A stretch of DNA of 39,272 nt from Candidatus Thorarchaeota archaeon (GCA_003662765.1 QMYR01000003.1:1-39272), one strand, 5' to 3'; counted from the stretch's first letter, positions 3,114-31,171 are shown. Notes: generated from the letters alone by a model not told the origin. Numbers and translations are program-made.

Positions 3114-4349
3114 ATGACCACACTCACAATCCCACAGCTTGAAAAGTGGTTTAGGAAACGCCTCCGGGCGAAGTCTAAGGACTTTATCAAGAAGGCTGAG
3201 AAGACGTACAAGGTCGTTGATCGCGCCCTGAAGGATGTGCAGTCCGTAGCTCGCGATCTCAGGAATGCAAGTTCTGACGATGACGCCGAGGTTGAGGGTA
3301 TTGCGACCCGTTTTGCAATGAAGATTGATGAGATTGTTGCTGAGTTCGACCTACGCAAGGAGATAACCTATGAGGGCACAGAAGCCATGCAGGCCGAGAT
3401 TCAGAGGTTTATCCAAGAGCTGTGGGGCGCCGGTGCAAGGTGGATTAAGCGGATGGATAAGCGTCACAAGGGCGCAATCAAGCAGCTGGACGCTTACATG
3501 AAGGACCTCATCAATGCCATGAAGACCATCGGAAAGCTCCTCTATGAGTACAGCTGGTTGAAGGACATTGAACGGATTGGCGCGAGAATCGAGACCCTGC
3601 GCGACCTCACGTATGGGAGAGAACTATACGAGGAGAGCATCCGCCAGGTACTGAGCAGGATTGAGCAGGCTCAGAGGGAATATGAAGAAGCAAAGAAGGC
3701 TCTTGAGGAGTTCAGGACCACTTCAAATGTGTCGGAGATATTGAGCCTAGATGAGCAAGCCGACCACCTCTCGGGTCTTCTCAGGATGAAGCTCAACACG
3801 CTGAAGAAGCCGGTCAAGAAATTTCTTCAGCACGACACAGGCGTCAGGGTAAGTCCTGCTGGTTCAAGAGCGCTCAATGACTATTTCGAGAATCCGTATC
3901 ATGCCATAGCAGAGGAGCCCGACGGTTATCCGGGGCTTATTGAGGGGCTTGAGGCGTTGAAACAGGCGATTGAGGAGGGAAAGCTGCCCCTCAAGGATAG
4001 GCTCGCGCGGCGAGCAATAGAAGAGATTGAGCGGATCAAGAAGGGCGGTCTTGCGGACCTCCAAGCACAGGCGAAGGATGTGGAGTCGAAGCGACGCGCA
4101 TATGCTGGTTCCGATGTGTACAAGAAGGCCGCAGAGCTTGAGGAGCGCTTTGAAGAGGCCAGGAAGAACCTCGAGTATCACAAGAACGATCTGTTGAGAA
4201 TACGAGATGAGATTCAGCGCCAACTAGAGAAAGTCACTGAGTTTAGAGAACGCATCGAGAAGGAGATTGAGGATGCCTTCGGAGAGACGGTCACAATCGA
4301 TGTCGGTGAAACCTTGGAGCCTCTTCTTGTCAAGTGTGCAATAGACTGA
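3114..4349 (+). CDS. Long coiled-coil protein, unknown function
   Basis: 411-aa ORF rich in E/K/R/L/A heptad-like segments (LEERFEEARKNLEYHKNDLLRIRDEIQRQLEKVTEFRERIEKEIEDAF). Confidence 0.75.
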   Translation: MTTLTIPQLEKWFRKRLRAKSKDFIKKAEKTYKVVDRALKDVQSVARDLRNASSDDDAEVEGIATRFAMKIDEIVAEFDLRKEITYEGTEAMQAEIQRFIQELWGAGARWIKRMDKRHKGAIKQLDAYMKDLINAMKTIGKLLYEYSWLKDIERIGARIETLRDLTYGRELYEESIRQVLSRIEQAQREYEEAKKALEEFRTTSNVSEILSLDEQADHLSGLLRMKLNTLKKPVKKFLQHDTGVRVSPAGSRALNDYFENPYHAIAEEPDGYPGLIEGLEALKQAIEEGKLPLKDRLARRAIEEIERIKKGGLADLQAQAKDVESKRRAYAGSDVYKKAAELEERFEEARKNLEYHKNDLLRIRDEIQRQLEKVTEFRERIEKEIEDAFGETVTIDVGETLEPLLVKCAID

Positions 4350-5181: not shown

Positions 5182-5272
5182 CAGCTGGCACGGCTGCAGA
5201 TATCGCCGAAAGGCTAAATACCCATAAGTGACAACCCGCCCCATATCGCGCCTAGATGCAAGAGGGGAAATC

Positions 5273-6208
5273 ATGGCGGCTGACGAACAAGTGCGAATTG
5301 ATAGTCTTGAAAAGACGGTCGAGAAACTTGTTTCTGAGATCTCAGACCTACGAGAGGTCGTCAAGGCATTGTCTGAAGACTCTGGCGTTTCTGACTCCGT
5401 GAAGGAGCTGGGCCAGTCCGTTGCTGAGATGAAGAGCCAACTGGACGGAATTGCAAAGATTGATGATGTTCTCTCGACAATTGGGGGACTTCGCGACGAA
5501 ATCTCCGCCATGAAGGAGTCATCGGAATCAGACGAGATGAACAAGAAACTCGACGACATTCTCAGCTCAATCTCGGGCCTTGGGAAGAGTATCCAGCAGG
5601 TCCACGACAGACAGGACATGTCAGACATCACGAGCAGGCTTGATGACCTCCATAAGCGACTTGAGGTCCTGACGGGTCTTGGCGAGAGAGTGGACGAGCT
5701 TCACAGCACATTCGAAGAAACGAAAGAGATAGTCAGCATAATCGTCCGCCAGCTAGACGACATTGAGCGGAAGTACAACAAGGCACTCAGCGAGGTATCA
5801 GAGGCACTTGCTCTCGTCCGGAAAGTCGCGGAGTCTGGTCCTCCTCCCGTGACTGCACCTACCGAACCGACACCTCCGCCAGAGAGAGCACCCCCGAAAA
5901 AGAAGCCCCGCAAGGTGTCAGGCAAGGCCCTTCCGTCGACGATTGACGCAATCATGGAGCAGCTCCTCGAACTGGTGACTCCTCATACCGAGGCTGTCGA
6001 GATGGCAAGGGCATTGGAGGAAACTAGGGATCGTCTCACCGACCTGATAAAGGAGCACACTCCTGTGATATTCCAGTTCGGGAAGATGGCCCGCGAGCTC
6101 AAGTCCTATCCCCCCACGGCGACTCTTAACGAGAACGACATCGCACGTCTCAACAAGGAGATTCGGTCGTGGACTGCCAAGCTAAAGGAAGTTGCGAAAG
6201 GACAATAG
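5273..6208 (+). CDS. Coiled-coil protein with Pro-rich linker and helical C-terminal domain
   Basis: ATG at 5273 (MAADEQVRIDSLEKTVEKLVSEISDLREVVKAL...); heptad-like N-terminal part, linker PPPVTAPTEPTPPPERAPPKKKPRK, helical C-terminus. Confidence 0.75.
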   Translation: MAADEQVRIDSLEKTVEKLVSEISDLREVVKALSEDSGVSDSVKELGQSVAEMKSQLDGIAKIDDVLSTIGGLRDEISAMKESSESDEMNKKLDDILSSISGLGKSIQQVHDRQDMSDITSRLDDLHKRLEVLTGLGERVDELHSTFEETKEIVSIIVRQLDDIERKYNKALSEVSEALALVRKVAESGPPPVTAPTEPTPPPERAPPKKKPRKVSGKALPSTIDAIMEQLLELVTPHTEAVEMARALEETRDRLTDLIKEHTPVIFQFGKMARELKSYPPTATLNENDIARLNKEIRSWTAKLKEVAKGQ

Positions 6209-6350: not shown

Positions 6351-7175
6351 GTGATCCTAACAATGCACTTGCAGGAGAACGCAGACCTACTTGCAAAGAG
6401 GATTAGACTCTTGAATCCTGACGCGGATCGTTATCTTGCACGCGAATTCATGGAACTTCACGAGGACAAGTGTACTCGATGTCAGGAGGACCGTCTCGGG
6501 TGCACAGTGAGGCCGGCGTGCAAGGACCGCAACTTTCTCAACATGCTAGTTGAAATTGGCGTACCTCCGCGCGACCTACCAAGATTCTGCTATTCTCAGT
6601 ACTTAGTTCAGATAAGACGTTACATCTTGGAGAAAAAGGGTCGTGGGATGACTGACCGCCGAATACCAATCAACGATCTCCTCTCTGCACTAAAGATGAG
6701 TTCAATCCGCCAGTTCACGACACGCTTCAACAAGCTCTGGAGTCGCCGGGCGCGCATCCGTGAGGGTGACACACTCATTGTGGCTGGTGACAACTTGCTG
6801 TTTCACTTTGATTTTGCCCGTGGGATAGTTGAACTGAACCCATGGCACAAGGAGATACAGTCGTTCGAGGTGTTTGATTGCTATGTACGCCTTTTGTCCC
6901 AGTATCATGGGGTCGAGGCGGAAACATTCGACGCGACATTGAACTGGTGGGTGTTGATGGTCAGCGTGGGATCAGTCAATCGCGGCAAAGTTGAGAAGGG
7001 CCTCTCCGAGCTTCGGGATAGATTCGAGGCCCTTCATCTCGTGGAGCTCGATGCTGGGACTGCGATACAGGCCGAGGTAGTCGCAGGTGGCAGCGAGCCT
7101 TCAATCAATGTGGGGGCCCTCAGAATGCTGTTCTCGTTGGCTTCTGAGGGGAGCACGGGCGAAACGTGGGCGTGA
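6351..7175 (+). CDS. Unknown protein with N-terminal Cys cluster (possible metal site)
   Basis: 274-aa ORF; CTRCQEDRLGCTVRPAC (CX2CX6CX5C); likely co-transcribed with the downstream coiled-coil gene (35-nt gap). An in-frame ATG at 6363 is an alternative start. Confidence 0.65.
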   Translation: MILTMHLQENADLLAKRIRLLNPDADRYLAREFMELHEDKCTRCQEDRLGCTVRPACKDRNFLNMLVEIGVPPRDLPRFCYSQYLVQIRRYILEKKGRGMTDRRIPINDLLSALKMSSIRQFTTRFNKLWSRRARIREGDTLIVAGDNLLFHFDFARGIVELNPWHKEIQSFEVFDCYVRLLSQYHGVEAETFDATLNWWVLMVSVGSVNRGKVEKGLSELRDRFEALHLVELDAGTAIQAEVVAGGSEPSINVGALRMLFSLASEGSTGETWA

Positions 7176-7209: not shown

Positions 7210-10200
7210 ATGAGCGGATCTGAAGCTGTGGAGAAGGCGATACCAGTACTGACCAAACATCTGGGTCTTACACCGACCGAGTCGAAAGTCCTCCTACCCA
7301 TCTATGTGGGCGGGAACATGACGCTGGGCGCGATAGCGCTCCTGTCCGGCCTATCGAAGGCGCGGGCCGAAAAGGCTCTTCGGAGTCTACTAGACAAGGG
7401 CCTCATAGTCAGGATTGAGGGCGTCGTACCAATCTATCGTGCCCTTCCTCCGAGTCTCGCACTGGCAGACGTCTTGGCCAACGTGGTCGAGGACATGAAA
7501 GCCTTCTCGGACAGAATACAGTCATCTGTTGATGAGGGGATTGCAAAGGCGGAAGACACGGTCAAGAAAGTCACTGATGAGCGTCATGTACGAATGGAGC
7601 GGCTTCGCAACGAGTTCGAGTCGTATGAGGCAGGCGTGCTGGACACGGTGCGCGAGCAGACCGAACAAATGGTCCGAACAACGAGTGAGGCGCTAGCCGA
7701 ATTCTTCTCCACTGTGGAATCCACCATGAATAGTCTGGCCGCCCACCTCGAAGACAGCATCGGTGATGAGCTCTCGTCCTTTCAACGTGATCTTGACGAG
7801 ATTCAAGAGTCACTTGATTCCCGTCTATCTGCTCTCTCCACAGAACTGGATGCCGCCGTGTCGTCCGAAAAGGCATCGACGATGAAGACGGTCGAAGAGC
7901 TCACTCATCATGCGGAATCACTGATTGACGAGGCTCACAACGCTGTCAAGTCGACCATAGCAGATGCGGAGTCGCGGCTGCGTGCCATTGTTGTCGACAC
8001 TGCTGAAACGCTTCGCCGCAGGGGGGACTCGTTGTCCTCCGAGGCACTTGAGGTCCTAGCGTCAGCATCAGACGAGCTGGAGGCCACGGTAGAACACTTG
8101 AAGGCTGAGCTGAGCAGCACCTACGTTCAGGCTCGCGAGCTCGTTGCTGGACTGATGACGCGAACCAAGAAGATCAATGAGGAATATGCTGCGCTTGTTT
8201 CTGGGATGATTGAGGACGCCATTGGCGTAACTAGTTCGATGCGGGGTGACATTGAAGACTGGAAGCATGAGGTCACCACCCTCGTCGAGAGTACCTCACA
8301 GACGGTCACTAACCATCTGAACCAGATCTCGGCTATTGATGCGTCGTATTTGGATGGTGTCGAGAATGTTCTCAGCTCACACATGGAGCAGTCATCATCT
8401 CTCCTGAGCAACGAGTATGCGGAGCTGCGCAAACTTGTGTCGTCGGTCCGGGACGACTTTGAGTCACTCCTCTCTTCAGGGCGCTCAGTCGTGGTTGACA
8501 TGCTTCAAGCTCAGAATGCCGAGGAGCTGGAGCGGCTCAAGCAGGCTCAGGAGGACCTCTTTTCGAAGCTCGGTAGCGGGACGCGGAAGACACAGACTGC
8601 GCTTAAGAAACAGGTTCAGGAAACTATCGAGAGCATCAACAGCATCTTCGAGACTGAGGTGAACGAACTCTCGACGCTCGTGAAGAACATGGACAGCAGA
8701 CTAAGATCCGCATTCTCATCCGTCATCTCGTCGTTGTCCACACGGAATGAAACCGTGTTGAGCGGAGCAGAGAAGTTTGTCGAGGACTTCGAGGGGACCT
8801 TCGGGGTTCAGCTTACTGAGATACTCAACCGTTTCTCCACCCAAATAGCCGAACAGGCCAATGCCACAAAGGAACTGTACGAGAGCATAAACGCACGGCT
8901 AGATGAGAGGCTTGCCGAGAGCGTATCAACAATTCGGTCGCATGCAGAGGGAGTAGAAACTGAGATTGAGTCAGCGATTGCCGACCAGGTGGAACGAATT
9001 GATCGGCATGCAGAGGGGATTAGACAAGAATTCCATGTGCACATGGAAGACATCACTCAACAGTTCATCTCACTGGTGCAGGGTCTTGAGGTCGCTTTCA
9101 ACGGTCTATTGACGAACCAGACCATGGAGGCCCGCGACCTTGTCAGATCCAACCATGTGGCCTTCAGAGAGGCCATTCGCCGCGAGATTGCCAACCTGAA
9201 AGAGGACTCACTGCGGCTCCAGCAGGAGTACGCCTCTGAGATAGGCGCTCGAATTGACGAAGTCATCGAGTCTGCTGCTGAGGCGAGGAGAGCCCTTGAG
9301 GAACTGACGAGTGCCAAGCGTGCGCAGGTTTCTCAGGGGCTGCACGAAACTCTCGATGGCATCGAAAAGGTCTTGGAGGGAATTGAGAACAGCCTCCGGG
9401 ACATTGAACGGGGATCCATCAGGCAGATGGGTGAGACCCTCGTTCAGCTCACGCGCGAGTTCGAGTCATCAATGGTCGGTGCTCGGGAAACAATTGCTGA
9501 GCGCTTGGAGAACGCGCAGGAGATGGTCGCATCGAGCTTGCGGAAGAGTATTACCAATGCACGAAATGCGGCAGAGTCGTTTGTCACCGAGGAAACCGAC
9601 CATCGTCAGCGTTTTGTTGCTGATACGAGCAAGAAGCTGGATAGTGTTGCCACCGAGATTGGGAACGAGGTTTCTGCGAAGTTTGATGTGTATAGTACAC
9701 GGCTAAAAGAGCGGGAGTCCGAGAGCGTCAGGCTCCGTGCTCAGATGCGTGATGAGGTCATTTCCGTTATGAAGCAGCGTCGTGCGCAGGCTGTCGAGTC
9801 GCTGGAGGGTGCGTCAGCGTGGGTTGACTCGACGATGGGGAACATCACAGCATCACTAGAGACTCTCGCAGAGAAGCTCAACAACGACATAACAGTCGTT
9901 CAGCAGGGGCTTGCGAAGGCTTCAAGTAATGCCTCTGAAACGGTCCTCAACAAGGGTACCCAATCCATTGCCAAGATTGAAACATCCACACTGGACCTCA
10001 TCAAGCAAGTCGAGTCTATGTTGAGTCAGCACGTGACAGATCTGACTGAGAGTGCCTCCGCACAGATAGACAGGTCCCGCGACAGCATAACCAGCTTTCG
10101 GGAAGGCATCAAGGAGCTGGCCGACTCGGTTTCTGAGACTACAAGTATGTCGGTCGATGAGGCTCAGGCAGAAATACACCGGCTACTTGGTGGCCGTGTC

Positions 10201-11106
10201 GAAGACCTGCGCGCCCAAGTTGCAAACGTGGCCAAGAGCTACAAGGCTACGACTAATCGCCTAGAGGCACGCCATTCCGAGCTTCGTAACGAGATCTTTG
10301 AGGCTGTGAAAGAAGCGCTTGTTTCCGCGAATGTACGGGCCTCCAGAAGGTTTGAGTCCGCAGGAGTGTCTCTGAAGGCCCGATTGAGCAGCGACATCTA
10401 TGGCCTGGCTGAAACCATTCGCAACAAGCTGGCGGCCCAGAGTGAGTCACTCGATCTGTCAGCCGCCGCGGCAAGCAACGTTCTAAGTGAGAGGACATCT
10501 CAGTTGCGACGGACCCGGGATGAGGTCGTAGGGCAGCTCGAAGCACAGTTTGACAAGTCTCTCAGGGGATGGTCCCGGTCAGTGAAGAAGAACCTCAACG
10601 AGCTGAAGGCGTCGCTTGCAGGAACCGTGGAGATGCTGAGTGTGGCTTCGACAAAGTCGGTAGAAACTGTTGAGGCCATCAGGACTGCGAGCGGAGTCCT
10701 GACGGAGTCATCGGCGAAGACCACATGGTATCTGACTGGCGCAGAAGAAACCTGTGCTCACATGTTCGACATGGCGGGCCGTGCTGAGAAGTCCATTGTC
10801 ATCTCTGTGCCGAATCCGGAGTGCTTGAACCTCAGGAAATTGTCGAAGGTCAAGAAGCCGGTGCGCCGTGTTCTCATCTTGCCCCCAACAGAAGAAGCCG
10901 AGCAGAGCCCAAGGGTTCCCGATGGGTGGCGAGTCTGGACAGTCGATTCTCCACCCTATCTGGCCGTTCGAGACGACGAGGAGATCATAGTTGGCGGAAT
11001 GGCCGGAGAGGGCCTACCGTTTGCCGTTGTATCGCGGGATGAGTCCTACCTGCGACTATACCATGATATCGTGGGGCCGCGCCTAGTACGTAGTAGGAAT
11101 GTCTAG
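7210..11106 (+). CDS. Giant TrmB-like protein: N-terminal winged HTH, ~1,070-aa coiled coil, C-terminal TrmB/PLD-like domain
   Basis: ATG at 7210 inside ORF 7087..11106; LGLTPTESKVLLPIYVGGNMTLGAIALLSGLSKARAEKALRSLLDKGLIVRIEGVVPIYRALPP matches the TrmB wHTH pattern; C-terminus WYLTGAEETCAHMFDMAGRAEKSIVISVPNPECLNL...RVLILPP...VDSPPYLAVRDDEEIIVGG resembles the TrmB C-terminal domain. Confidence 0.8.
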   Translation: MSGSEAVEKAIPVLTKHLGLTPTESKVLLPIYVGGNMTLGAIALLSGLSKARAEKALRSLLDKGLIVRIEGVVPIYRALPPSLALADVLANVVEDMKAFSDRIQSSVDEGIAKAEDTVKKVTDERHVRMERLRNEFESYEAGVLDTVREQTEQMVRTTSEALAEFFSTVESTMNSLAAHLEDSIGDELSSFQRDLDEIQESLDSRLSALSTELDAAVSSEKASTMKTVEELTHHAESLIDEAHNAVKSTIADAESRLRAIVVDTAETLRRRGDSLSSEALEVLASASDELEATVEHLKAELSSTYVQARELVAGLMTRTKKINEEYAALVSGMIEDAIGVTSSMRGDIEDWKHEVTTLVESTSQTVTNHLNQISAIDASYLDGVENVLSSHMEQSSSLLSNEYAELRKLVSSVRDDFESLLSSGRSVVVDMLQAQNAEELERLKQAQEDLFSKLGSGTRKTQTALKKQVQETIESINSIFETEVNELSTLVKNMDSRLRSAFSSVISSLSTRNETVLSGAEKFVEDFEGTFGVQLTEILNRFSTQIAEQANATKELYESINARLDERLAESVSTIRSHAEGVETEIESAIADQVERIDRHAEGIRQEFHVHMEDITQQFISLVQGLEVAFNGLLTNQTMEARDLVRSNHVAFREAIRREIANLKEDSLRLQQEYASEIGARIDEVIESAAEARRALEELTSAKRAQVSQGLHETLDGIEKVLEGIENSLRDIERGSIRQMGETLVQLTREFESSMVGARETIAERLENAQEMVASSLRKSITNARNAAESFVTEETDHRQRFVADTSKKLDSVATEIGNEVSAKFDVYSTRLKERESESVRLRAQMRDEVISVMKQRRAQAVESLEGASAWVDSTMGNITASLETLAEKLNNDITVVQQGLAKASSNASETVLNKGTQSIAKIETSTLDLIKQVESMLSQHVTDLTESASAQIDRSRDSITSFREGIKELADSVSETTSMSVDEAQAEIHRLLGGRVEDLRAQVANVAKSYKATTNRLEARHSELRNEIFEAVKEALVSANVRASRRFESAGVSLKARLSSDIYGLAETIRNKLAAQSESLDLSAAAASNVLSERTSQLRRTRDEVVGQLEAQFDKSLRGWSRSVKKNLNELKASLAGTVEMLSVASTKSVETVEAIRTASGVLTESSAKTTWYLTGAEETCAHMFDMAGRAEKSIVISVPNPECLNLRKLSKVKKPVRRVLILPPTEEAEQSPRVPDGWRVWTVDSPPYLAVRDDEEIIVGGMAGEGLPFAVVSRDESYLRLYHDIVGPRLVRSRNV

Positions 11107-12370: not shown

Positions 12371-12531
12371 ATCAATCCCTTGGAACCCGTCTGGTAAAGG
12401 TCTTAATAATCTATGGCTGTTGTTTCTTGAATCTCTTGTCTTGCGCAACACAGCCACGCAAGAAATATCTTGTAGTTGACCGATGCACAGTCATTCGAAC
12501 AGAGTGCCCATAGTTGACGGGGGATTGTGTT

Positions 12532-12972
12532 ATGTCTTCGGAGAGAAAATCGCGATGGCTCTTCAAAATCACAATTGTCGGGCCTGACGACATGTTGCTG
12601 CGGGAAGTGATGGACGCCATCAATAGCAACACGGTTGCTGTAGATGGGATACGGATAGGCTCGAGAGATCTTGAGGCGGGCAGCTCTGAGGTGCGCGCAG
12701 TGATGATGTCACCCACCAAGCGTGCTATGGACATATTGTTCTCATTCAGCTATCGCGGCGCGTCGGCAGTAATCATAGTTCTTAGAAGACCTGACCCCGA
12801 GATTGAAACAAAGTATCGAAACGAGATTCGCGAGAATATCGGGTCCGGATGCCCGACCAGAGTGTTTTACGTAGGCGACGAGCTAAACGAAGAGAAGCGC
12901 AAAGAACTGGCGGGTCTGTTTACGAGTCTGATTGAAGAGATGATTGAGGCGCGAGAGACATCAGACAAATGA
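12532..12972 (+). CDS. Ras/Rab-like fold protein lacking a canonical P-loop (candidate pseudo-GTPase)
   Basis: 146-aa reading from ATG 12532; FKITIVGPDDMLLREVMDAI in the beta1/P-loop position (no GxxxxGK[ST]), FSYRGASAVIIVLRRPDPEIETKYRNEI resembling the Ras beta4/alpha3 region, FYVGDELN in place of NKxD. Confidence 0.55.
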   Translation: MSSERKSRWLFKITIVGPDDMLLREVMDAINSNTVAVDGIRIGSRDLEAGSSEVRAVMMSPTKRAMDILFSFSYRGASAVIIVLRRPDPEIETKYRNEIRENIGSGCPTRVFYVGDELNEEKRKELAGLFTSLIEEMIEARETSDK

Positions 12973-13052
12973 GAGATACTCTCAGCGCCACTCGATGGCC
13001 ATCGGCACAAGCCTTTTCTCCACAGTATGGTGAACTCGTGTAGGTGTTCCTA

Positions 13053-14435
13053 GTGACCTCCGAACAGGACGAGAAGTATTGGTTGGGAGTACGCGACGCT
13101 CTGAGAATGGTTGACAGCTTCATAGAGTGGGCGAAGAGAAACCCGGACAGGGCAAAGCCCCTTGACCAGTTCATCAATGATGCACTCATCGCCGCAGCTA
13201 GGCGATGCCAGTCGTGTCTCAGTCATGCCTTGGGTATTTCGTTTGCAGCTACTGAATCAGATGAGAAGAAGAGGTTAGAAACCGAGAGGCCCCATGTCGA
13301 CTTCTTTGAGCCCACAGAAACTATGGTTGAGAGATCTCCCTTAGCGCGGACACTCCGCGACCCTGACGACCTGTATATGGAACGCACTCCACCTGCGACC
13401 GAGGGGAGTGAGTTCGGCACCCCTCCAGCTCCGCCCGTTGCAACGCGTGAGGAGGGCCCACAGGAGGTCACATCGTCACTCGAGGAGAGCGCACCCTCTC
13501 CTGCTGAATTCCACGAGGCTGTTCAGCCATCTGGCGAGCCGTCCTCCCCCCTCGATTCGCTCGAACCAACAGGATCTCTGTCAGAGGAGGATGTGACATC
13601 AACAGGACCACCTCGAGACTTCGAATCTGAGTTTCACTTGGAAGAACCCGAGCCGCTCTCTGTTGAACCGGAAACCCCTCCTGACACATCCGACAGCACT
13701 GTGACTTTTGAACGCGTATCGTCCGACTCCCTCGGCAAGACGGCAGAAACCGAGCCAGCACCATCGTCCGGGCAGACCTTCGCGTCGCCGCAATCCCGGG
13801 AGGAGCAACCCCCCGTGACGGACAGTGCGACTGAGAGGCCCCCGCTTGCTGCGGAAATGGATGCACTTGCCGAGCTGGAACGTGTGCTGGACGAACACGG
13901 ATTCGGCATGCCATCTGACACCGACGGAACCTTCGAACCAAGTTTGGAGTCTGGGCCATCCGCAAGCGAGGAGATATCTGACCAAGAATCGAGACCACAC
14001 GGGCCATCGGAGTCTTCTGAACCACTGCTTGAGAGTCAGCCATCCGACATGACGGAGGAGACGCAAGAGTCCACACCCTCTGAGCCGCTGGTCACTCCGC
14101 CACCCACGGAAGAGTCACCGCCTCCTGAGCCTGAGGAGGTGCCGTTGGTCACCCCCCCACCTCTGGAGCACCAGGCTGAGACCACCACCGAAACGGAAAC
14201 AACCCCGGCCACCCGGCACAGCGAGGTACGGAGTCTGTGGAGCCCCTACGATGAGCCATCTGCACCAGAGTCCTCGGTCGAGCCTTCGACGGAGCGGGAA
14301 GAAACTCCCTCTGACACCGGACGACCTGACGACGAGCGTATGTCGGTCCCACCGCCTCCTCCTCCTCCGCCCGATACTGACGAAACTGAAGAGGAGCGAC
14401 AGAAACGCACACGGCGTCTGTTCTTCGGCGCATAA
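13053..14435 (+). CDS. Small N-terminal helical domain followed by long acidic Pro/Ser/Thr/Glu-rich disordered region and basic C-terminal tag
   Basis: ORF with N-terminal EKYWLGVRDALRMVDSFIEWAKRNPDRAKPLDQFINDALIAAARRCQSCLSHALGI, ~350 aa low-complexity PEST-like sequence, C-terminus ERQKRTRRLFFGA; GTG start at 13044 or 13053. Confidence 0.7.
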   Translation: MTSEQDEKYWLGVRDALRMVDSFIEWAKRNPDRAKPLDQFINDALIAAARRCQSCLSHALGISFAATESDEKKRLETERPHVDFFEPTETMVERSPLARTLRDPDDLYMERTPPATEGSEFGTPPAPPVATREEGPQEVTSSLEESAPSPAEFHEAVQPSGEPSSPLDSLEPTGSLSEEDVTSTGPPRDFESEFHLEEPEPLSVEPETPPDTSDSTVTFERVSSDSLGKTAETEPAPSSGQTFASPQSREEQPPVTDSATERPPLAAEMDALAELERVLDEHGFGMPSDTDGTFEPSLESGPSASEEISDQESRPHGPSESSEPLLESQPSDMTEETQESTPSEPLVTPPPTEESPPPEPEEVPLVTPPPLEHQAETTTETETTPATRHSEVRSLWSPYDEPSAPESSVEPSTEREETPSDTGRPDDERMSVPPPPPPPPDTDETEEERQKRTRRLFFGA

Positions 14436-20501: not shown

Positions 20502-20880
20502 CTTCTCTCACCTGACTCTCCTCAACCGGAACAGTTTGACGACCATTCCGGTATTCACCTGAGGCTAATCTCAGTCATACTCCAATATGGTTGTGAGTAA
20601 TACCAGCGCCATGTCTAAGCCTGTTTCAAGGGAATGAGATGAGGTGAGGAGGAGCGAATCTCGCTCCCACTCAGAAGTAGTGACGCGCATTACAATGCCG
20701 GGAGGAGAGTGGTGAACCGCGCGTCTGGGTTCCTCGGTCACTGGTGACTTATGTCAGCTTGTGTGTTCGGGCCAATATCCGGCCAATACTCACGATATTT
20801 CATGCGTGTTCTTCAGAATCTCGGAATACATTTTAGGCGGTAATATCAGTTCAGCACTATTCATCACAATACGAGGTGAA

Positions 20881-21654
20881 ATGATGTCTGGAGGCGCTAC
20901 TGAAAGCAAGAGCGACTCGGTGGGCGCTGCACAGGATGCTCCCCAGGTGACTGAGGAGCTACAGTCTCTGAAGCTCATCAGGGCAAGGCGGTCAATCCGT
21001 GAGTTCACGGGCGAACGTATCCCTGACGAGCACATCGAGATGATTCTGGAGGCAGCAAGACATGCCCCGAGTCCAGAGAACATGCTGATGATTAGGTTCA
21101 TTGTGATTAGGGACGATCAAGAAACAAAGGAGTTTCTTGCCGACATAGCACAGGAGATGGCACAGACGGCGTTCGGTGGTGCTCCCTTTGAGTTGACCAG
21201 TGGGAGAAACTGGTTCATCACGGATCCCTATCGGGCTGCAGTCTATGCCCGGCTGCGTGATGGTGAGTTGTTCCGTTATCCGGAAAAGAGCGACGCTGTG
21301 ATTGTTGTCTGCGCAAGTGAGGCGTGGCACGATGCAGGCTACCTGTACCCACTGGACTTGTTCGGTTCGGTCGTGGCCGGGATGGCTGTGCAGAACATGT
21401 GGCTTGTCGCGACCGAGCTGGGCTACGGTTGTGGCTATGAGGCATTGGTGACCTCGGATCCGAGGCACGCGGAGTTATTGCGCGACCGACTCGGTATTCC
21501 GCCGCTCTGGAAGCCGCTGACCGCGTTCTGTATTGGCAAGCGTGCCAAGCCGCGGGAGCTGGGGCCGAGTAGACCCCCGCTTGAGGGCCTGATGTACGAG
21601 GAGCGCTGGGGCGTTCCATACAGACGCCTGGCGTTCAGGAAGAAGGAGGAGTGA
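20881..21654 (+). CDS. Nitroreductase-family flavoprotein
   Basis: RARRSIREFTGERIPDEHIEMILEAARHAPSPENMLMIRFIVIRD...GSVVAGMAVQNMWLVATELGYGCGYEAL...IGKRAKPRE. Confidence 0.9.
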   Translation: MMSGGATESKSDSVGAAQDAPQVTEELQSLKLIRARRSIREFTGERIPDEHIEMILEAARHAPSPENMLMIRFIVIRDDQETKEFLADIAQEMAQTAFGGAPFELTSGRNWFITDPYRAAVYARLRDGELFRYPEKSDAVIVVCASEAWHDAGYLYPLDLFGSVVAGMAVQNMWLVATELGYGCGYEALVTSDPRHAELLRDRLGIPPLWKPLTAFCIGKRAKPRELGPSRPPLEGLMYEERWGVPYRRLAFRKKEE

Positions 21655-21656
21655 CG

Positions 21657-21914
21657 ATGGAGGTCAACTTCGAAGGCGAGATAATGAGCAAGATTCAGGA
21701 GCTGGCTGACGAGGCTGGTGTGAAGCCTGAGGGCCTCATCGAGATAGTGGTGCGTGAGTTCGCCAGAAACACTGGCGGCCGCGTGTACGTCGGTCGTTGG
21801 TCAAAGGGCGAGGTCGACGGTGTGAAGGGAATGCGTTACGTTGTTCAGTGGCCGTTCCGGCCCGGATTCATTGAGGCTCCAGGGGACCTTGTGAAGAGAT
21901 GGAGGAAGGAGTGA
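21657..21914 (+). CDS. Small protein of unknown function in nitroreductase/SCP2 operon
   Basis: 85-aa reading MEVNFEGEIMSKIQELADEAGVKPEGLIEIVVREFARNTGG...; start a few nt after nitroreductase stop. Confidence 0.65.
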   Translation: MEVNFEGEIMSKIQELADEAGVKPEGLIEIVVREFARNTGGRVYVGRWSKGEVDGVKGMRYVVQWPFRPGFIEAPGDLVKRWRKE

Positions 21915-22186
21915 TGGCGAAGTACAGGAAACATCCCACTGGTGAATGGCCTTTCTACCCAAGGCTGAAGGAGGGCGATATCCAGCACGAGTACTGGACA
22001 TCGAAGAAGATGTACCACAAGGCCTTCATTGACGACCGGAAAGGACGCATCGTCATTCTCATGGATGGCGACGAGTACGACGCATTCTTGGACAAGGTAC
22101 GAGAGAGAAAGGGCAACATCTGGGCGAGTTCAGTGGATGCGGCAGTCAAGGAGGCCATAGCCGGATGGATGGCGAAGGAGGACTGA
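21914..22186 (+). CDS. Small protein of unknown function
   Basis: ATG 21914 overlaps preceding TGA; MAKYRKHPTGEWPFYPRLKEGDIQHEYWTSKKMYHKAFIDDRKGRIVILMDGDEYDAFLDKV... Confidence 0.65.
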   Translation: MAKYRKHPTGEWPFYPRLKEGDIQHEYWTSKKMYHKAFIDDRKGRIVILMDGDEYDAFLDKVRERKGNIWASSVDAAVKEAIAGWMAKED

Positions 22187-22192
22187 GATGAG

Positions 22193-22549
22193 ATGTCACA
22201 ACTACAAGAGTTCTTTCGGTTCCTGATCGCAAAGGTCAGGGAGAAGGAGGACCTCAAGAAGCAGCTTGCTAAATGGGTCGGCCCCTATCACGGGAAAGTA
22301 CTGCAGGTGTACACCGAGGACGGACCGCAGTATATAGTGGTGACGAAGGAGGGAATGTCGCTCCATGACGGAGTCTATCCCAGCCCCGATGTGATCTACA
22401 AAGCATCAACCCAGACATTGCTTGCCATCTTCACGGGTGAGGTTCCCTTCAAGCAGACCATGAAGGACGGTTCTCTCGAAGTCATCGGTAATGCCCACGA
22501 GAGCAACCCCTTGGCGAATCTGATACTTGCGGCCATGATGTCGATGTAG
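22193..22549 (+). CDS. SCP2 sterol-carrier-like domain protein
   Basis: 118-aa ORF; YIVVTKEGMSLHDGVYPSPDVIYKASTQTLLAIFTGEVPFKQTMKDGSLEVIGN is the SCP2-type pattern. Confidence 0.75.
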   Translation: MSQLQEFFRFLIAKVREKEDLKKQLAKWVGPYHGKVLQVYTEDGPQYIVVTKEGMSLHDGVYPSPDVIYKASTQTLLAIFTGEVPFKQTMKDGSLEVIGNAHESNPLANLILAAMMSM

Positions 22550-22560
22550 GCGGTGATGCC

Positions 22561-23685
22561 ATGGACGTAAAGAGGATAGCCGTGATAGGCTCCGGCCTTA
22601 TGGGCTCAGGCATCGCCTATGTATCCGCATGGAATGGCTTCGAGGTGACAATGGTCGACATCAAACAAGAGGCCATTGACGCTGGCATGGAGCGAATTCG
22701 AAATGATGTCATGACCGGTATCGAGAAGGGCAAGATGTCTTTGGCCGACGCAGAGGGTCTCATGGGTCGCCTCAAGGCCACGACTGACCAAGCGGAAGCC
22801 GTCAAGGACGCAGATCTCGTCATTGAGGCAATCTTTGAGAACATGGAGATCAAGAAGAAGGTCTTTGCTGCTCTTGACGAGCAGGCACCAGCCCATACCA
22901 TTCTCGCCTCGAATACGTCCTCGCTGAGCATCGACGAGCTTGCGAGTGCAACGAAGCGTCCTGAGAAGTTTATCGGGATGCACTACTTCTCGCCAGTCGC
23001 GGCCATGAAGCTCGTGGAGATAGTCATAGGCGAGAAGACATCCGAGGACACGATTGACACGGCCGTGGCGGTGGCCAAGAAGCAGGGAAAGATACCGGTC
23101 AAGGCCAAGAATAGCCCCGGCTTCATAGTGAATCGGGTTCTCATGCCTGTTCTCCGGGAGGCAATCCTTCTCTATGAGCAGGGTGTCGCCTCCAAAGAGG
23201 AGATTGATACGGCCCTGACGGTTCACGGCAAGTTTCCTGCCGGCCCGTTCACTCTTGGCGACTTCGTTGGTCTAGATGTGGCCTATCATACAATGGAAAC
23301 GCTGTATCAGGAGATTGGTGAGTGCTTCAAGCCTCCTGAGACTCTGAAGAAGCTTGTCGACAGCGGTGCACTTGGTACCAAGACCAAGAAGGGTTTCTAC
23401 GAGTACGGAGGCGCTTCAGCCGAACCCGAGCCGCCCAAGGGCGCTGACCCTCAGTGGCTGCTCACGAGAATCTCGGTTCCCGTCATTCGAGAAGCAATGA
23501 TTCTCGTCGACGAGGGCATCGCCACGAAAGATGACATCGACAAGGCTATGAAGCTTGGCGCCAACTTCCCCATGGGCCCGTTTGAGATGGCCGAATCTCT
23601 CGGGCTTGACAAGGTCAAGGTCGAGCTTAAGAAGCTCCACCAAGAACTTGGTGAGTGCTATAGCATTCCGAAGATGTTGCAGTAG
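22561..23685 (+). CDS. 3-hydroxyacyl-CoA dehydrogenase with two C-terminal 3HCDH domains
   Basis: IAVIGSGLMGSGIAYVSAWNGFEVTMVDI, LASNTSSLSIDELA, GMHYFSPVAAMKLVEIV, KNSPGFIVNRVLMP; C-terminal domain repeated (FPAGPFTLGDFVGLD / FPMGPFEMAESLGLD). Confidence 0.95.
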   Translation: MDVKRIAVIGSGLMGSGIAYVSAWNGFEVTMVDIKQEAIDAGMERIRNDVMTGIEKGKMSLADAEGLMGRLKATTDQAEAVKDADLVIEAIFENMEIKKKVFAALDEQAPAHTILASNTSSLSIDELASATKRPEKFIGMHYFSPVAAMKLVEIVIGEKTSEDTIDTAVAVAKKQGKIPVKAKNSPGFIVNRVLMPVLREAILLYEQGVASKEEIDTALTVHGKFPAGPFTLGDFVGLDVAYHTMETLYQEIGECFKPPETLKKLVDSGALGTKTKKGFYEYGGASAEPEPPKGADPQWLLTRISVPVIREAMILVDEGIATKDDIDKAMKLGANFPMGPFEMAESLGLDKVKVELKKLHQELGECYSIPKMLQ

Positions 23686-23699
23686 TGTGCCACGACGTG

Positions 23700-23721
23700 G
23701 GGCAGGTGACCACCCCTGCCC
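23700..23721 (+). terminator. Hairpin at 3' end of 3-hydroxyacyl-CoA dehydrogenase gene
   Basis: GGGCAGG-TGACCACC-CCTGCCC followed by pyrimidine-rich tccatctctactcttctct. Confidence 0.45.
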
Positions 23722-23830
23722 TCCATCTCTACTCTTCTCTGTGCATCGCTACAGCCTGAACCTGTCATTACGGAGGTTTATTAGTAAGCTTACCAGTTGT
23801 TCCCTGCAAAGTCTCTATGAGGTGCGAAAA

Positions 23831-24643
23831 ATGCCTGAGTTTGAAACTATGCTCTATGAGAAGGCGGGTTCGTTCCTGTCGCCCGTCAAGAATGTCGCCC
23901 TCATCAAGTTCAATCGACTTGATGCACTCAACGCGATAAACGACCAGTTCATCAAGGACCTGATTGCTGCACTGGACGAGGCGGAAAAGGACCCCGACAT
24001 CCGGTCCGTTGTCCTAGCAACCAATCACGACAAGGTGTACTGTACTGGTGCGGACCTGAAAATGGCCCAGGGGCTTCTTGGCAAGTCCGACGAGGTTCGT
24101 GAGCTTGTGGCTCTTGGTCAACAGGCCATAGACAAGATCGCAACCTTCAGCAAGCCCGTCATCGCGGCGATTCACGGGCTGTGCTTGGGCGGAGGCACCG
24201 AGATTGCTCTAGCATGTGATGTCCGCATTGCTGATGAGGAGGCAAAGATTGGCGCCCCTGAAGTTAGCCTCGGCCTTATTCCAGCCTGGGGCGGCTGCGT
24301 GCGTCTGCCTCGCATTGTGGGGCTAGGAAAGGCCATGGAGCTCATCCTGACGGGCGGTCAGATAACAGCTCAGGAGGCTCTTCAGATCGGCCTTGTCAGC
24401 AAAGTCACTAAGCCTGACGAGCTCCTGAGCCAAGCCATGTGGTACGGCGCCAAGTTCGGAGGCAATGCCCCAATCGCGATGAAGCTGGCCAAGAAGGCCA
24501 CTCATATGGCATTTGAGGCCTCGTACGAGGAGAACCTGAAGTTCGAGGTTGACGCTGCGGTGGAGTGCTTCGGCACCAAGGATCTTGCCGAGGGCATCAC
24601 AGCCGTATTTGAGAAGCGCCGCGGAAAGTTCACTGGAGAGTAG
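23831..24643 (+). CDS. Enoyl-CoA hydratase/isomerase family protein
   Basis: ATG 23831 in ORF 23555..24643; IHGLCLGGGTEIALACDVRIADEEAKIGAPEVSLGLIPAWGGCVRLPRIVG; both catalytic Glu positions present. Confidence 0.93.
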   Translation: MPEFETMLYEKAGSFLSPVKNVALIKFNRLDALNAINDQFIKDLIAALDEAEKDPDIRSVVLATNHDKVYCTGADLKMAQGLLGKSDEVRELVALGQQAIDKIATFSKPVIAAIHGLCLGGGTEIALACDVRIADEEAKIGAPEVSLGLIPAWGGCVRLPRIVGLGKAMELILTGGQITAQEALQIGLVSKVTKPDELLSQAMWYGAKFGGNAPIAMKLAKKATHMAFEASYEENLKFEVDAAVECFGTKDLAEGITAVFEKRRGKFTGE

Positions 24644-24651
24644 TCTGTGGT

Positions 24652-24688
24652 GGTCCCCGGGGCTGTTCCCGGGGCCGCGCCTGTTTTT
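24652..24688 (+). terminator. Strong GC hairpin followed by T5
   Basis: GG(T)CCCCGGG-GCTGTT-CCCGGGGCC then gcgcctgTTTTT, just after the enoyl-CoA hydratase stop. Confidence 0.6.
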
Positions 24689-24734
24689 CGTCGTGTATTG
24701 AGAGTCATCTGAACATAGGCTGACAATCTGTGGG

Positions 24735-24774
24735 CCTGCCCGCGGCAGGACGGTCCCAAGCCGTTCGGCTTGGG
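24735..24774. other. Two adjacent perfect hairpins in intergenic region (possible structured RNA)
   Basis: CCTGCC-CGC-GGCAGG (24735-24749) and CCCAAGCC-GTTC-GGCTTGGG (24755-24774). Confidence 0.5.
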
Positions 24775-25013
24775 CGGATTTAACCTTGTAGTCTTCTATG
24801 CTGCTTCCTGTACTCCAAACTGCTCGTCTTGGATGGCACACCGTGTGCTTATGGTCCGAAGATGGAACGGGGTGGCGAATGCTATGTGCTGCAACTTGAT
24901 TCGTGGTGAAATCCAATGTCCAAGGCGTTCAACATCCCGACAATTCCGGAGCCAGACACTCCCTGGTAGGAAAAACAGGCTCTGAGTCTGTATCCCCTGA
25001 CACAAACCAACAA

Positions 25014-25038
25014 GGGGGCGGCAATGTTCGCCGTCTCC
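25014..25038. other. Intergenic inverted repeat
   Basis: GGGGGCGGC-AATGTTC-GCCGTCTCC, 9-bp stem with GU pairs. Confidence 0.4.
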
Positions 25039-25052
25039 CTTCACCTCTTTCT

Positions 25053-25071
25053 AGGATCCCTCGTGGATCCT
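25053..25071. other. Intergenic inverted repeat
   Basis: AGGATCC-CTCGT-GGATCCT. Confidence 0.5.
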
Positions 25072-25223
25072 CCTGACAGTAAGGGGTGTATCGAGCGTTG
25101 CGGACGTCCCGCCAAGCGTCAACCTTAAGACCTCGTTCTCAAATCACGCACAAATCCATTCAAGATTGATGGGACCTGCACATACCAACCCGCAACGCAG
25201 GAGCGTCCCAGGAGGAAACAGAA

Positions 25224-26390
25224 TTGGCCAGAAGGGTAGCAGTAGTGGCTGGTGGCCACAGCAAGTTTGGCAAGCGCTATGATGCAACAATGCGCGAGCT
25301 ATGTGCTGAGGCCTTCAAGCCGATCTTGGACGAGGGAATCACTCAGGACATGATTGATGCGAGTGTCCTGTCGTATGCAGCAAGTCAATTCACAGGTCAA
25401 GGGGCGGGCTCTGCGCTCATTGCAGACTATCTTGGTCTGCACGAGAAGCCGCACCTCCGAGTGGAGTCTGCATGTACGACGGGGACAGCATCACTCAGAG
25501 CGGCATGGGGCATGGTTGCATCTGGGCTGTATGACATAATGTTGGTGCTCGGCGTCGAACAGATGAACCGGGTCACCTCCGCTCAAGCCACAGAGTTGAT
25601 GGCACGGGCTGGCGACATGCGGTGGGAGTATCCCTTCGGCATATCATTCCCCGCATTCTATGCATTGATGGCCTCCAGATACATGCATGAGTACAATCTG
25701 CCCCACGAGGTGCTCTCCATGATTGCAGTGAAGTCTCACCACTATGGAGCACAGAATCCGAAGGCCCACCTACCTCGTGAGGTGACGCTTGAGGCGGCCC
25801 ACAACTCAGTGCCCATATGCAGACCATTGAACCTGTACGATTGCAGTCTGATCACCGACGGTGCTGCGGCTGTGGTGATTGCAGCTGAAGACCGTGTCAA
25901 GGAGTTCACCGACGAGCCAATGTGGATAAGGGGGATTGGTGCAGGCGCGTCTGAGATGATGGTCCAAGACAGACCTTCACTCACATCTATTCCTGGTGCG
26001 AAGCGCGCCGCCAAGGCAGCCTACAAGATGGCCGGTCTTGAGCCGAAGGACATGGACATGGCAGAGGTTCACGACTGTTTTACGATTGCTGAGCTCATCG
26101 CCTACGAGGATCTCGGCTTTGCAGAGCCGGGCAAGGGTCGGGAGATTGTCGAGAACAAGGAGAACTACCATGATGGAAAGATTCCTGTGAACGTGGACGG
26201 GGGCCTGAAGAGCAAGGGACATCCTCTCGGTGCAACGGGTCTCTCAATGACTTACGAGATTCTGATGCAGATGAGAGGCGAGGCACAGAAACCGTCCAGG
26301 CAGATTGATGATGTCCAGTTCGGCCTTGCCCACAACGTGGGGCAATCAGGTCAGTTCGTCAACATATTCATCTTTGAGCGAGGTTGGTGA
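25224..26390 (+). CDS. Thiolase (SCPx/archaeal type)
   Basis: VESACTTGTASLRAAWGMVASGLYDIMLVLGVEQM (nucleophilic Cys), MAEVHDCFTIAELIAYEDLG, VDGGLKSKGHPLGATGLSM; TTG start. Confidence 0.93.
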   Translation: MARRVAVVAGGHSKFGKRYDATMRELCAEAFKPILDEGITQDMIDASVLSYAASQFTGQGAGSALIADYLGLHEKPHLRVESACTTGTASLRAAWGMVASGLYDIMLVLGVEQMNRVTSAQATELMARAGDMRWEYPFGISFPAFYALMASRYMHEYNLPHEVLSMIAVKSHHYGAQNPKAHLPREVTLEAAHNSVPICRPLNLYDCSLITDGAAAVVIAAEDRVKEFTDEPMWIRGIGAGASEMMVQDRPSLTSIPGAKRAAKAAYKMAGLEPKDMDMAEVHDCFTIAELIAYEDLGFAEPGKGREIVENKENYHDGKIPVNVDGGLKSKGHPLGATGLSMTYEILMQMRGEAQKPSRQIDDVQFGLAHNVGQSGQFVNIFIFERGW

Positions 26391-26395
26391 TAGGA

Positions 26396-26815
26396 ATGTC
26401 TGGAGAGAAGAAGGAACTCTATCTGGGATATACCACGGACAAGGCAGTGACGCCTTTCTTCCAAAAGTTTCTCGAGGCACTTGAGCAGGAGAAGTTGATG
26501 ATGAGTCGATGCCCCAAGTGTGGGACCGAATACTTGCCCCCTCGGCAACATTGCCAGAAGGACTTGGAGGAGTGCGAGCTTGTCGAGTTCACGGAGCGTG
26601 AGGCGAAGTTGCATTCCTATGTGATTGTGGACTTTGCTCCGGAGAGTCTCACGTCACGTGCGCCCTACGTTGTGGCGATTGGCGAGTTTCCATCGGGCAA
26701 GAAGTTGACCGCACATATCACCAACCTGATGTCAATGCCTGAGATTGGCATGACGCTCAAGCTGGCATTCGATCGCATTGACGAGAAGAAGATCACCTAC
26801 AAGTGGCTCGTCTAG
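26396..26815 (+). CDS. DUF35 Zn-ribbon/OB-fold protein (thiolase/HMGCS partner type)
   Basis: MMSRCPKCGTEYLPPRQHC...CELVEFTEREAKLHSYVIVDFAPESLTSRAPYVVAIGEFPSGKKLTAHIT; immediately downstream of thiolase. Confidence 0.9.
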   Translation: MSGEKKELYLGYTTDKAVTPFFQKFLEALEQEKLMMSRCPKCGTEYLPPRQHCQKDLEECELVEFTEREAKLHSYVIVDFAPESLTSRAPYVVAIGEFPSGKKLTAHITNLMSMPEIGMTLKLAFDRIDEKKITYKWLV

Positions 26816-26822
26816 TACGCTT

Positions 26823-26852
26823 GAGGGCTCTGCCCTCTTTCCCCTTTCTTTT
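26823..26852 (+). terminator. Hairpin plus T-rich tract
   Basis: GAGGGC-TCT-GCCCTC then tttcccctttcttttg, between convergent genes. Confidence 0.6.
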
Positions 26853-26853
26853 G

Positions 26854-27213
26854 TCATGTTCTGCCGAATGACTCGCGAGTGTCCTCTATCAGTCTTGCAA
26901 GCCTTGAGAATCGGGCCACCTGTTTCATTGTCTGCAGGAATATCCTAGACGCCTCGCGAGTGTCGCATCTGTCGAGTCTTTCGAGTGCATCGTCTATGAC
27001 TTCCATCACATCTTGGATTCTGCGTCGCCCCTCGTTCCTTCTGTAGTCCGAGAAGACCAGGTAATCCGGACCGTCTGGATTCCAGCACCTGAGAAACTTC
27101 TCTTGCTCGTACACGGTGGTCGTCAGTTCATACGTGCCAAGAAGGGAGTTCTTCATGGCGAGGAGCGAGTCCCTCCAGATCTGCTTCTTCTCCGAGGCGT
27201 CCAAAGACCTCAC
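26854..27213 (-). CDS. Small all-helical protein of unknown function
   Basis: 119-aa ORF, helical composition; LLAMKNSLLGTYELTTTVYEQEKFLRCWNPDGPDYLVFSDYRRNEGRRRIQDVMEVIDDALERLD. Confidence 0.6.
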   Translation of the reverse strand: MRSLDASEKKQIWRDSLLAMKNSLLGTYELTTTVYEQEKFLRCWNPDGPDYLVFSDYRRNEGRRRIQDVMEVIDDALERLDRCDTREASRIFLQTMKQVARFSRLARLIEDTRESFGRT

Positions 27214-27340
27214 ACCTACAGTCCCGATGATATAGTTCCGGCCCTATGCAAAAGGTCCAGATAAACCTGTGGAGTCGCTGCCCCCGAACGCTTATTACGT
27301 ACGAAACGCTGTGCGCGTTATCGTCACGGAGAGGAGCACG

Positions 27341-28126
27341 ATGTCCGAGCAAGATGTTCTCTATGAGGTCACCGATGGAATCGCGACCATCACTATCAAC
27401 AGACCGAAGAAGTACAACGCACTCAACATCGCGGTCGTGAAAAGACTGCGTGAACTCTTCGAGCAGGCTGAGAAGGACGAGTCGGTACGTGTTGTGGTTC
27501 TGACCGGGACAGGGGAGAAGGCCTTTGCTGCCGGCGCAGACATCACAGAGTTTCAGGGCAAGGACTCCAAGTCTGTGCGCGCCTTGGCTGAGAATGGACA
27601 GGCGCTGTGCACGTACATCGAATCGATGAGCAAGCCTGTTATTGCTGCGGTCAACGGATTCGCTTTGGGCGGCGGATGCGAGGTGGCTATGGCCTGCGAT
27701 ATCAGGTATGCCTCAGCAAACGCTCGATTCGGTCAGCCGGAGATCAACCTCGGCATCATTCCCGGGTTCGGTGGCACTGTGAGACTTCCCCGTCTAGTCG
27801 GCCTAGGTATTGCCAAGGAGCTCGTCTATACGGGCGACCAGATCAAGGCCGAGGAGGCTCTACGGATTGGCCTGGTCAACCGCGTCTTCGACTCGGTCGA
27901 GGCATTGCGCGCAGGTGTCGATGAGCTGGCCAAGAAGCTGTCGAAGAAACCGGGAGTGGCAATCAGACTTGCGAAGCAGTCACTCAACAATGCGTGGGCC
28001 CTGCCAATAAGAGAGTCTCTCGACTTCGAGGTCAATGTGTTCTGTGAGGTCTTCGACACGGAGGATATGGTTGAGGGCGTTGACGCGTTTCTCAATAAGC
28101 GCGAGCCCCACTTCAAGCACAAGTAG
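27341..28126 (+). CDS. Enoyl-CoA hydratase/isomerase family protein
   Basis: ATG 27341 in ORF 27269..28126; VNGFALGGGCEVAMACDIRYASANARFGQPEINLGIIPGFGGTVRLPRLVG. Confidence 0.95.
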   Translation: MSEQDVLYEVTDGIATITINRPKKYNALNIAVVKRLRELFEQAEKDESVRVVVLTGTGEKAFAAGADITEFQGKDSKSVRALAENGQALCTYIESMSKPVIAAVNGFALGGGCEVAMACDIRYASANARFGQPEINLGIIPGFGGTVRLPRLVGLGIAKELVYTGDQIKAEEALRIGLVNRVFDSVEALRAGVDELAKKLSKKPGVAIRLAKQSLNNAWALPIRESLDFEVNVFCEVFDTEDMVEGVDAFLNKREPHFKHK

Positions 28127-28140
28127 CTTCAACATCTACA

Positions 28141-28162
28141 CGGCGGCGACACGGTGCCGCCG
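28141..28162. terminator. GC-rich hairpin between convergent genes
   Basis: CGGCGGC-GACACGGT-GCCGCCG. Confidence 0.45.
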
Positions 28163-28167
28163 CCCCA

Positions 28168-29106: not shown

Positions 29107-29236
29107 TGCAACCCGGTACTACTTGGCCAAACCACAAGAAAAAGTGCTTGATTGGGCTTCAGGCACATGTTGGCCTCCGCCAGTATGATTCATATTGAAG
29201 TCATTGAATATGCAGCTCCCTGCTGTGGTGAGCTAC

Positions 29237-30694: not shown

Positions 30695-30701
30695 TTGAGA
30701 A

Positions 30702-30725
30702 GGACGGGAGGCTCCCCTCCCGTCC
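30702..30725. terminator. Perfect 10-bp hairpin between convergent genes
   Basis: GGACGGGAGG-CTCC-CCTCCCGTCC. Confidence 0.5.
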
Positions 30726-30734
30726 AAGACAGTT

Positions 30735-30983
30735 TCAGTCTGAACCCCGCTCGCTCTCTTCCCAGAACCTCCCAAGTAGCACCATGGCAAGAATCAGTTC
30801 GGAACCCGTCACGCGCTGAGCGATAAACTCGATGCTCTCACTCACGGTTGTTCCGTGTTCCCACCCTTGTCTTGCGATGTCAACCAAGTCCTCGAAACGG
30901 TGTTCGGGGATTCCAAGTGCGTCAGTGATCTTCGACTCATCATGTCCTACAATCGTAAGTACACCCAGACTATACGTTGGCAC
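30735..30983 (-). CDS. Small protein of unknown function
   Basis: 82-aa ORF MPTYSLGVLTIVGHDESKITDALGIPEHRFEDLVDIARQGWEHGTTVSESIEFIAQRV... Confidence 0.55.
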   Translation of the reverse strand: MPTYSLGVLTIVGHDESKITDALGIPEHRFEDLVDIARQGWEHGTTVSESIEFIAQRVTGSELILAMVLLGRFWEESERGSD

Positions 30984-31171
30984 TATTCTATCACCAATTT
31001 CGACAAGAGGGCTTGTCGTTATATCATGCTCTCACATAGCTAGTCCTTTTAATCTATCTGGGACTGAATCGTGGTTGCTGTCTGCACTGCGTTGGTGTAT
31101 GCCGAAATGCTTCTATTGATGGGACGGCCTGTTCATTTGGCATCCCTGCTCATAGATGGAGACCGAACGTG

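Follow-up and report, generated by a model that had tools for sequence, protein, structure and literature searches.

TrmBL2 of the Thermococcales is a chromatin protein of 264 amino acids (aa) that coats DNA, forms stiff DNA filaments and crystallizes as tetramers (PDB 5BPD/5BQT/5BOX; PMC4877046). TrmB of P. furiosus (338 aa; PDB 3QPH) dimerizes through a coiled-coil (CC) helix, which the pairs Phe81/Ile91' and Phe84/Leu88' show to be antiparallel; its DNA-binding domains are described as swapped (PMC4158304). The Sso10a proteins of Sulfolobus form antiparallel coiled-coil dimers with a winged helix at either end, and Sso10a1 bridges DNA (PMC4941522). In SMC/Rad50-type proteins the antiparallel coiled coil is very long, its arm lengths are constrained and quantised (PMC5344682), and an arm of 49 nm has been described (PMC5526789). 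Here we analyse a stretch of 39,272 nucleotides from Candidatus Thorarchaeota archaeon (GCA_003662765.1 QMYR01000003.1:1-39272; 'the window' hereafter), which encodes a giant relative of TrmB in which an unbroken coiled-coil rod of ~1,070 residues links the winged helix to the C-terminal domain.

The open reading frame (ORF; 7210..11106, + strand) has a stop-free translation of 1,298 aa and is supported by orthologues, whose N-termini (M/L/V-S-x..) favour the ATG at 7210 as the start over a GTG at 7087. Residues 17-81 (7258..7452, +) match Pfam TrmB (PF01978) with E=2.2e-10 and 40.7 bits (cut-off 25.6), and a family profile of this helix-turn-helix (HTH) domain, when compared with the PDB, places the chromatin protein TrmBL2 at the top (E=1.2e-10). 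The C-terminal domain (CTD; residues 1166-1298, 10705..11103, +) is PLD-like and TrmBL2-like. PF11495 (Regulator_TrmB) is matched in 10 of 17 family members (best 2.3e-6), with the match of the window protein itself falling below the Pfam threshold, and an AlphaFold model of residues 1130-1298 (predicted local distance difference test, pLDDT, 84.6) folds the C-terminal 133 residues confidently as an alpha/beta domain. A Foldseek search with this model returns TrmBL2 first (E=2.6e-8), then PLD-family proteins, and TrmB (2F5T) matches too. The PF11495 matches in long relatives cover the first half only (positions 3-122 of the 233-position model in one of them), and the second, sugar-binding subdomain appears to be missing from the ~130-aa C-terminal domain. 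Family searches found no ATPase family or ABC ATPase head in the ORF. As a single-sequence query the full protein had no match in the PDB or in the genome contigs, although the family alignment did find relatives.

The protein most likely belongs to the TrmB superfamily as a TrmBL2-type member that does not sense sugar and has a giant dimerization helix. Like TrmBL2, it combines a winged helix, a dimerization helix and a PLD-like C-terminal domain that lacks the sugar-binding subdomain, but a helix of ~1,070 residues takes the place of the short dimerization helix of TrmBL2, and the protein lacks the recognition Tyr. With P. furiosus TrmB it shares the winged helix and would share the antiparallel CC-helix dimer, whereas the effector domain of TrmB has two subdomains and binds sugar, and its CC helix is a few turns long. 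A sequence-only reading of this locus had proposed both terminal domains, with the dimerization helix of a TrmB-type regulator enlarged into a giant rod; the domain matches and the many homologues that share the architecture agree with it. Its suggestion of a role other than sugar sensing also stands, as to direction only, given the TrmBL2-type C-terminal domain and the apparent loss of the sugar-binding part.

The rod (residues 96-1165; 7495..10704, +) is a hendecad, not a heptad, coiled coil. Hydrophobicity averaged over 25 orthologues has a single sharp period of 3.665 (11/3) along the whole length, the 3.5 component is weak in each 120-residue portion of the rod, and the members examined have little or no power at this heptad period. 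The rod of the window protein contains 0 Pro and 0 Cys, Pro makes up 0.14% of the rod across the 25 orthologues, and the protein shows no hydrophobic membrane segment, all of which agrees with the uninterrupted helical middle free of transmembrane segments described earlier. The sole recurrent rod Pro, at residue 964, occurs in most orthologues and is absent from the window protein and its nearest relatives. Pfam matches within the rod are to generic helical families, such as Apolipoprotein, a match best explained by the 11-residue periodicity. The hydrophobic phase steps by ~1 residue near residues 290-385, about the invariant W351, and the most conserved rod segment (residues 557-667; 8878..9210, +) surrounds the rod centre and includes the invariant H609, F619 and F630, among others.

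The best supported of our new conclusions, which we hold with high confidence, is that the two halves of the rod lie antiparallel in strict register, residue i opposite residue ~1240-i, about residue ~620. When every possible mirror-pairing centre along the rod was tried, conservation, mutual information and charge converged on a centre of symmetry at residues 619-620 (9064..9069, +). The mirror symmetry of conservation is centred at 620.5, the antidiagonal that passes through 618.5 has the highest mutual information, compensatory charge covariation is greatest on that at 619-619.5 (5.3 standard deviations (SD) in a band), and charge complementarity, taken as the charge product, on that at 620.0 (5.0 SD). 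For parallel staggered packing, no diagonal stands out past short separations in the window family.

The geometry of group I yields a rule for the position of the dyad (HTH end plus half the spacer, with a fixed offset), and this rule holds in other families. In paralogue group II (spacer ~870 residues), for which the dyad was predicted beforehand at 510.5, the best charge antidiagonal is at 511.0 (z 5.0-5.2); mutual information was uninformative there, with n=9 sequences. In subfamily f2 (~760 aa, 21 sequences) the dyad was predicted in advance at 345, and the sole rod indels (insertions or deletions) fall at 345, mutual information peaks at 347-347.5 and the conservation mirror is at 349.5 (r=0.93). 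The charge product of f2 is without a peak at the dyad, and only conservation, mutual information and indel position fit. With groups I and II excluded, the global charge optimum lies within a few residues of the predicted dyad in 7 of 28 rod lengths, many of which are represented by one sequence only, whereas 0.47 were expected and 200 rotated controls gave no more than 2 (combined z 5.0 vs 3.2).

Rod length is constant within the family. The 36 full-length orthologues compared are well diverged (identity down to 24%, with a median of 34%; 17 substitutions per site over the rod tree), and residues 10-1169 contain 0 indels in this set. The 133-residue C-terminal domain has ~6 in the same sequences, a rate that predicts ~61 in the rod. 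This absence can be explained by the pairing itself: because the rod is ANTIPARALLEL (antiparallel register), residues gained or lost in one arm would shift that arm relative to the other, and only dyad-centred length changes are harmless. The sole full-length Thorarchaeal orthologue with a different rod length (L113; 1,531 aa) contains a diverged 232-residue tandem duplication of residues 505-736, a block centred at 620.5. Its own charge dyad is at 736.0, that is 620+116, shifted by half the insert, and the former centre sequence is present twice, within the arms. The duplication lengthens the rod of one lineage and keeps the pairing register. Another sequence (L037), shorter by 22 aa, fits two 11-aa deletions near the dyad, not exactly on it. 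The ~1,085-residue rods of other families share 14-17% identity with group I and are too diverged for a gap count. The sequence-only reading, which had recognised the expansion of the rod, missed the hendecad, the antiparallel dyad, the constant family length and the upstream partner gene described below.

Since canonical TrmB is already antiparallel and domain-swapped, the giant may represent this topology grown about its dyad. We propose that the TrmB dimerization helix expanded symmetrically about this dyad into the hendecad coil, and that two chains would pair as a straight antiparallel dimer, ~155 nm long and domain-swapped. In such a bipolar molecule, the winged helix contributed by one chain would sit at either end next to the partner chain's PLD-like domain, and each end may bind DNA through a basic recognition helix. 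The net charge of this helix is +3.7 in the window subfamily as compared to +2 in TrmBL2, and a DNA-tethering role, which the sequence-only reading had also named, is plausible for this subfamily. The rod would thereby bridge or space two DNA segments at a set distance, as a chromosome-organising strut, with the five-Cys protein encoded upstream as a putative regulator or adaptor in which a metal or Fe-S site is likely. By analogy, the most economical mechanism would be a bipolar DNA strut or bridge, a hugely elongated version of Sso10a with a length constraint like that of SMC arms. Sso10a is a works-like analogue for which homology is not claimed; it is about 10 kDa, with a short coil and no C-terminal domain. 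SMC/Rad50-type proteins resemble the rod protein in their long antiparallel coil of constrained length, which brings the N- and C-terminal domains together, but in the rod protein no ATPase head, hinge domain or kleisin partner was found, the coil is a hendecad rather than a heptad one, and the ends are of the TrmB type. For the complete mechanism, a bipolar antiparallel dimer that bridges DNA, we put the chances at about even.

Several observations weigh against this mechanism, and the covariation on which the register partly depends comes from only ~35 non-redundant sequences. Some concern the shape of the rod: a two-chain antiparallel rod and a fold-back chain are inseparable by sequence pairing, which fits either. 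In the main rival explanation, the chain turns at ~620 in the manner of SMC proteins, the winged helix and the PLD-like domain form one head, and an antiparallel arm of ~79 nm ends in a conserved tip that dimerizes or binds a partner. The register data fit this arrangement equally, and the most conserved part of the rod is its centre. A clear loop, Pro/Gly-rich or with Lys and aromatic residues, occupies the predicted centre in ~7 independent subfamilies (for example GDPPSESEDDPPS, SLFPPLAAP and KKGFFWMGKKKK), and a helix-breaking segment is found at the predicted centre in 7 of 21 independent subfamilies, as against 1-2 at sham positions; fold-back hairpins probably exist in these loop-centred subfamilies. 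An AlphaFold model of residues 470-770 also splits into two helices, the break at 617-619 being of low confidence, but a segment whose ends lie symmetrically about 620, as here, is predisposed to fold in half, and the model is given little weight. In the window subfamily itself, on the other hand, a helix-breaking signature is present at the centre in 0 of 37 members, the hydrophobic stripe runs through it continuously (11 degrees), and F619 is invariant; these features favour the straight domain-swapped dimer. The orthologue with the duplication, which carries the old centre sequence twice inside its arms, also speaks against a turn. We consider the straight dimer the somewhat likelier form in the window subfamily, and the hairpin a possible but less probable one. 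The span of about 160 nm put forward by the sequence-only reading accordingly holds only if each chain forms one straight rod, and not for a fold-back chain.

The f2 subfamilies (L144-L166, L174-L178), which have shorter rods, show a basic-aromatic loop at the centre, KKGFFWMGKKKKYKAR, with a net charge of about +6. The composition of this loop suggests a nucleic-acid- or membrane-binding hairpin tip.

Other points bear on DNA binding. The recognition Tyr50 of TrmB is at the aligned position in no rod protein examined, an Asp is at the Asp51 position in 2, and the winged helices are acidic in many sister subfamilies, including group II and f2, which probably do something else. These features, together with the basic-aromatic tips of f2, would suit a second rival, in which the ends are protein-protein modules and the rod serves as a scaffold in the cytoplasm or at the membrane and plays no part on DNA. 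This explanation appears unlikely for the window protein, since group I and the longest rods have a basic recognition helix (+2 to +4), TrmBL2 is the closest relative at both ends, and a hydrophobic membrane segment is not visible. The cytoskeletal role raised by the sequence-only reading gained no positive support. A parallel, in-register dimer with both winged helices at the same end is a common topology of long coiled coils, but is very improbable here because it leaves unexplained the antidiagonal signals of charge, mutual information and conservation, their confirmation in other subfamilies and the centred duplication. An ordinary sugar-responsive TrmB repressor with a long passive linker, for which the TrmB winged helix and the PF11495-related C-terminal domain might speak, is largely refuted, as the sugar-binding subdomain appears absent, the linker is indel-free and in antiparallel register rather than passive, and a short canonical TrmB (262 aa, HTH-to-CTD spacer 32) is present elsewhere in the same genome.

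The three-part architecture is not confined to the window. In a search of Asgard genomes, among them metagenome assemblies, full-length orthologues were found across Thorarchaeota; the 43 named loci comprise 39 from Candidatus Thorarchaeota, 2 from Lokiarchaeota and 2 labelled 'archaeon'. Of the 228 genomes searched, 221 carry the C-terminal-domain family, for the most part in long ORFs, and the same architecture occurs throughout Asgard archaea with rods of 0.5-1.9 thousand residues. An assembly artefact, which the sequence-only reading had allowed for, is ruled out by this distribution together with the TrmB matches. Among the proteins in which both domains could be delimited (more than 100), the hendecad peak ranges over 3.645-3.685, and the HTH-to-CTD spacers cluster tightly within lineages at 522 (n=17), 868 (7), 1082 (35), 1544 (3), 1691 (3) and other lengths. 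Paralogue groups II and III (L031-L042) reside in the same Thorarchaeal genomes, with nearly indel-free rods of ~870 or ~753 residues, and are probably not DNA-binding, to judge from their acidic winged helix. Pieces of paralogues of the group II/III type are also found in the window genome, on C9 and C179. No description of giant TrmB rods was found in the searchable open literature, a coverage that leaves out most subscription journals; a 2023 survey of hendecad families by Martinez-Goikoetxea and Lupas may already list some of the rod proteins.

Directly upstream of the rod gene is a partner gene of 274 aa (6351..7175, +), whose product has invariant Cys residues at 41, 44, 51, 57 and 80. 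Each of the 28 Thorarchaeal loci checked has a counterpart immediately before the rod gene, and members of the partner family occur in 151 of 224 Asgard genomes, nearly always in single copy. In nine Asgard families (f1, f3, f4, f6, f11, f12, f16, f24 and f25) a TrmB-rod gene follows the partner directly, and the adjacency persists where the rods have diverged past alignment; in the sampled genomes of f2, f9, f13, f20, f27 and f28 the partner is present beside other genes. The protein has no PDB match and no convincing Pfam match, with weak AraC-HTH matches in 5 of 15 members only.

The wider neighbourhood kept in Thorarchaeota includes a D-aminoacyl-tRNA deacylase, coiled-coil ORFs, a RimI-like acetyltransferase, DUF362 and an aminotransferase. 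Within the same conserved gene order, 3114-4349 (+) encodes a 411-aa helical protein of no known family that is 58-79% identical across Thorarchaeota and exceeds the rod protein in conservation. The ORF at 5228-6208 (+), likewise kept in this neighbourhood, encodes a 326-aa coiled-coil protein with a Pro-rich linker, the aligned length of which varies among orthologues, unlike that of the rod. Two ORFs without a family match (12514-12972 and 13044-14435, +) are kept downstream in Thorarchaeota. Further along, 20761-32821 contains metabolic genes for a nitroreductase, 3-hydroxyacyl-CoA dehydrogenase, enoyl-CoA hydratases, thiolase, FGGY kinase and a glycerol-3-phosphate-type FAD oxidoreductase.

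Extended to the whole group, our analysis tentatively suggests an Asgard-wide class of chromosome struts that derive from TrmBL2, are ATPase-free and SMC-like or bipolar, and act with the five-Cys partner, some subfamilies having turned to other cargo. Within such a class, it is conceivable that hendecad rods of 0.5-1.9 thousand residues serve as DNA rulers of up to ~140 nm when folded or 280 nm when straight. As a natural case, the family is unusually clean: sequence alone is enough to reveal the topology of its long antiparallel hendecad coil. The pairing rule (i with ~1240-i), together with the fixed length, makes sharp predictions for crosslinking and electron microscopy. Asgard archaea are the closest known relatives of eukaryotes. 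If the rods do organise DNA, they would constitute a lineage-wide system of chromosome architecture in the archaea nearest to eukaryotes.

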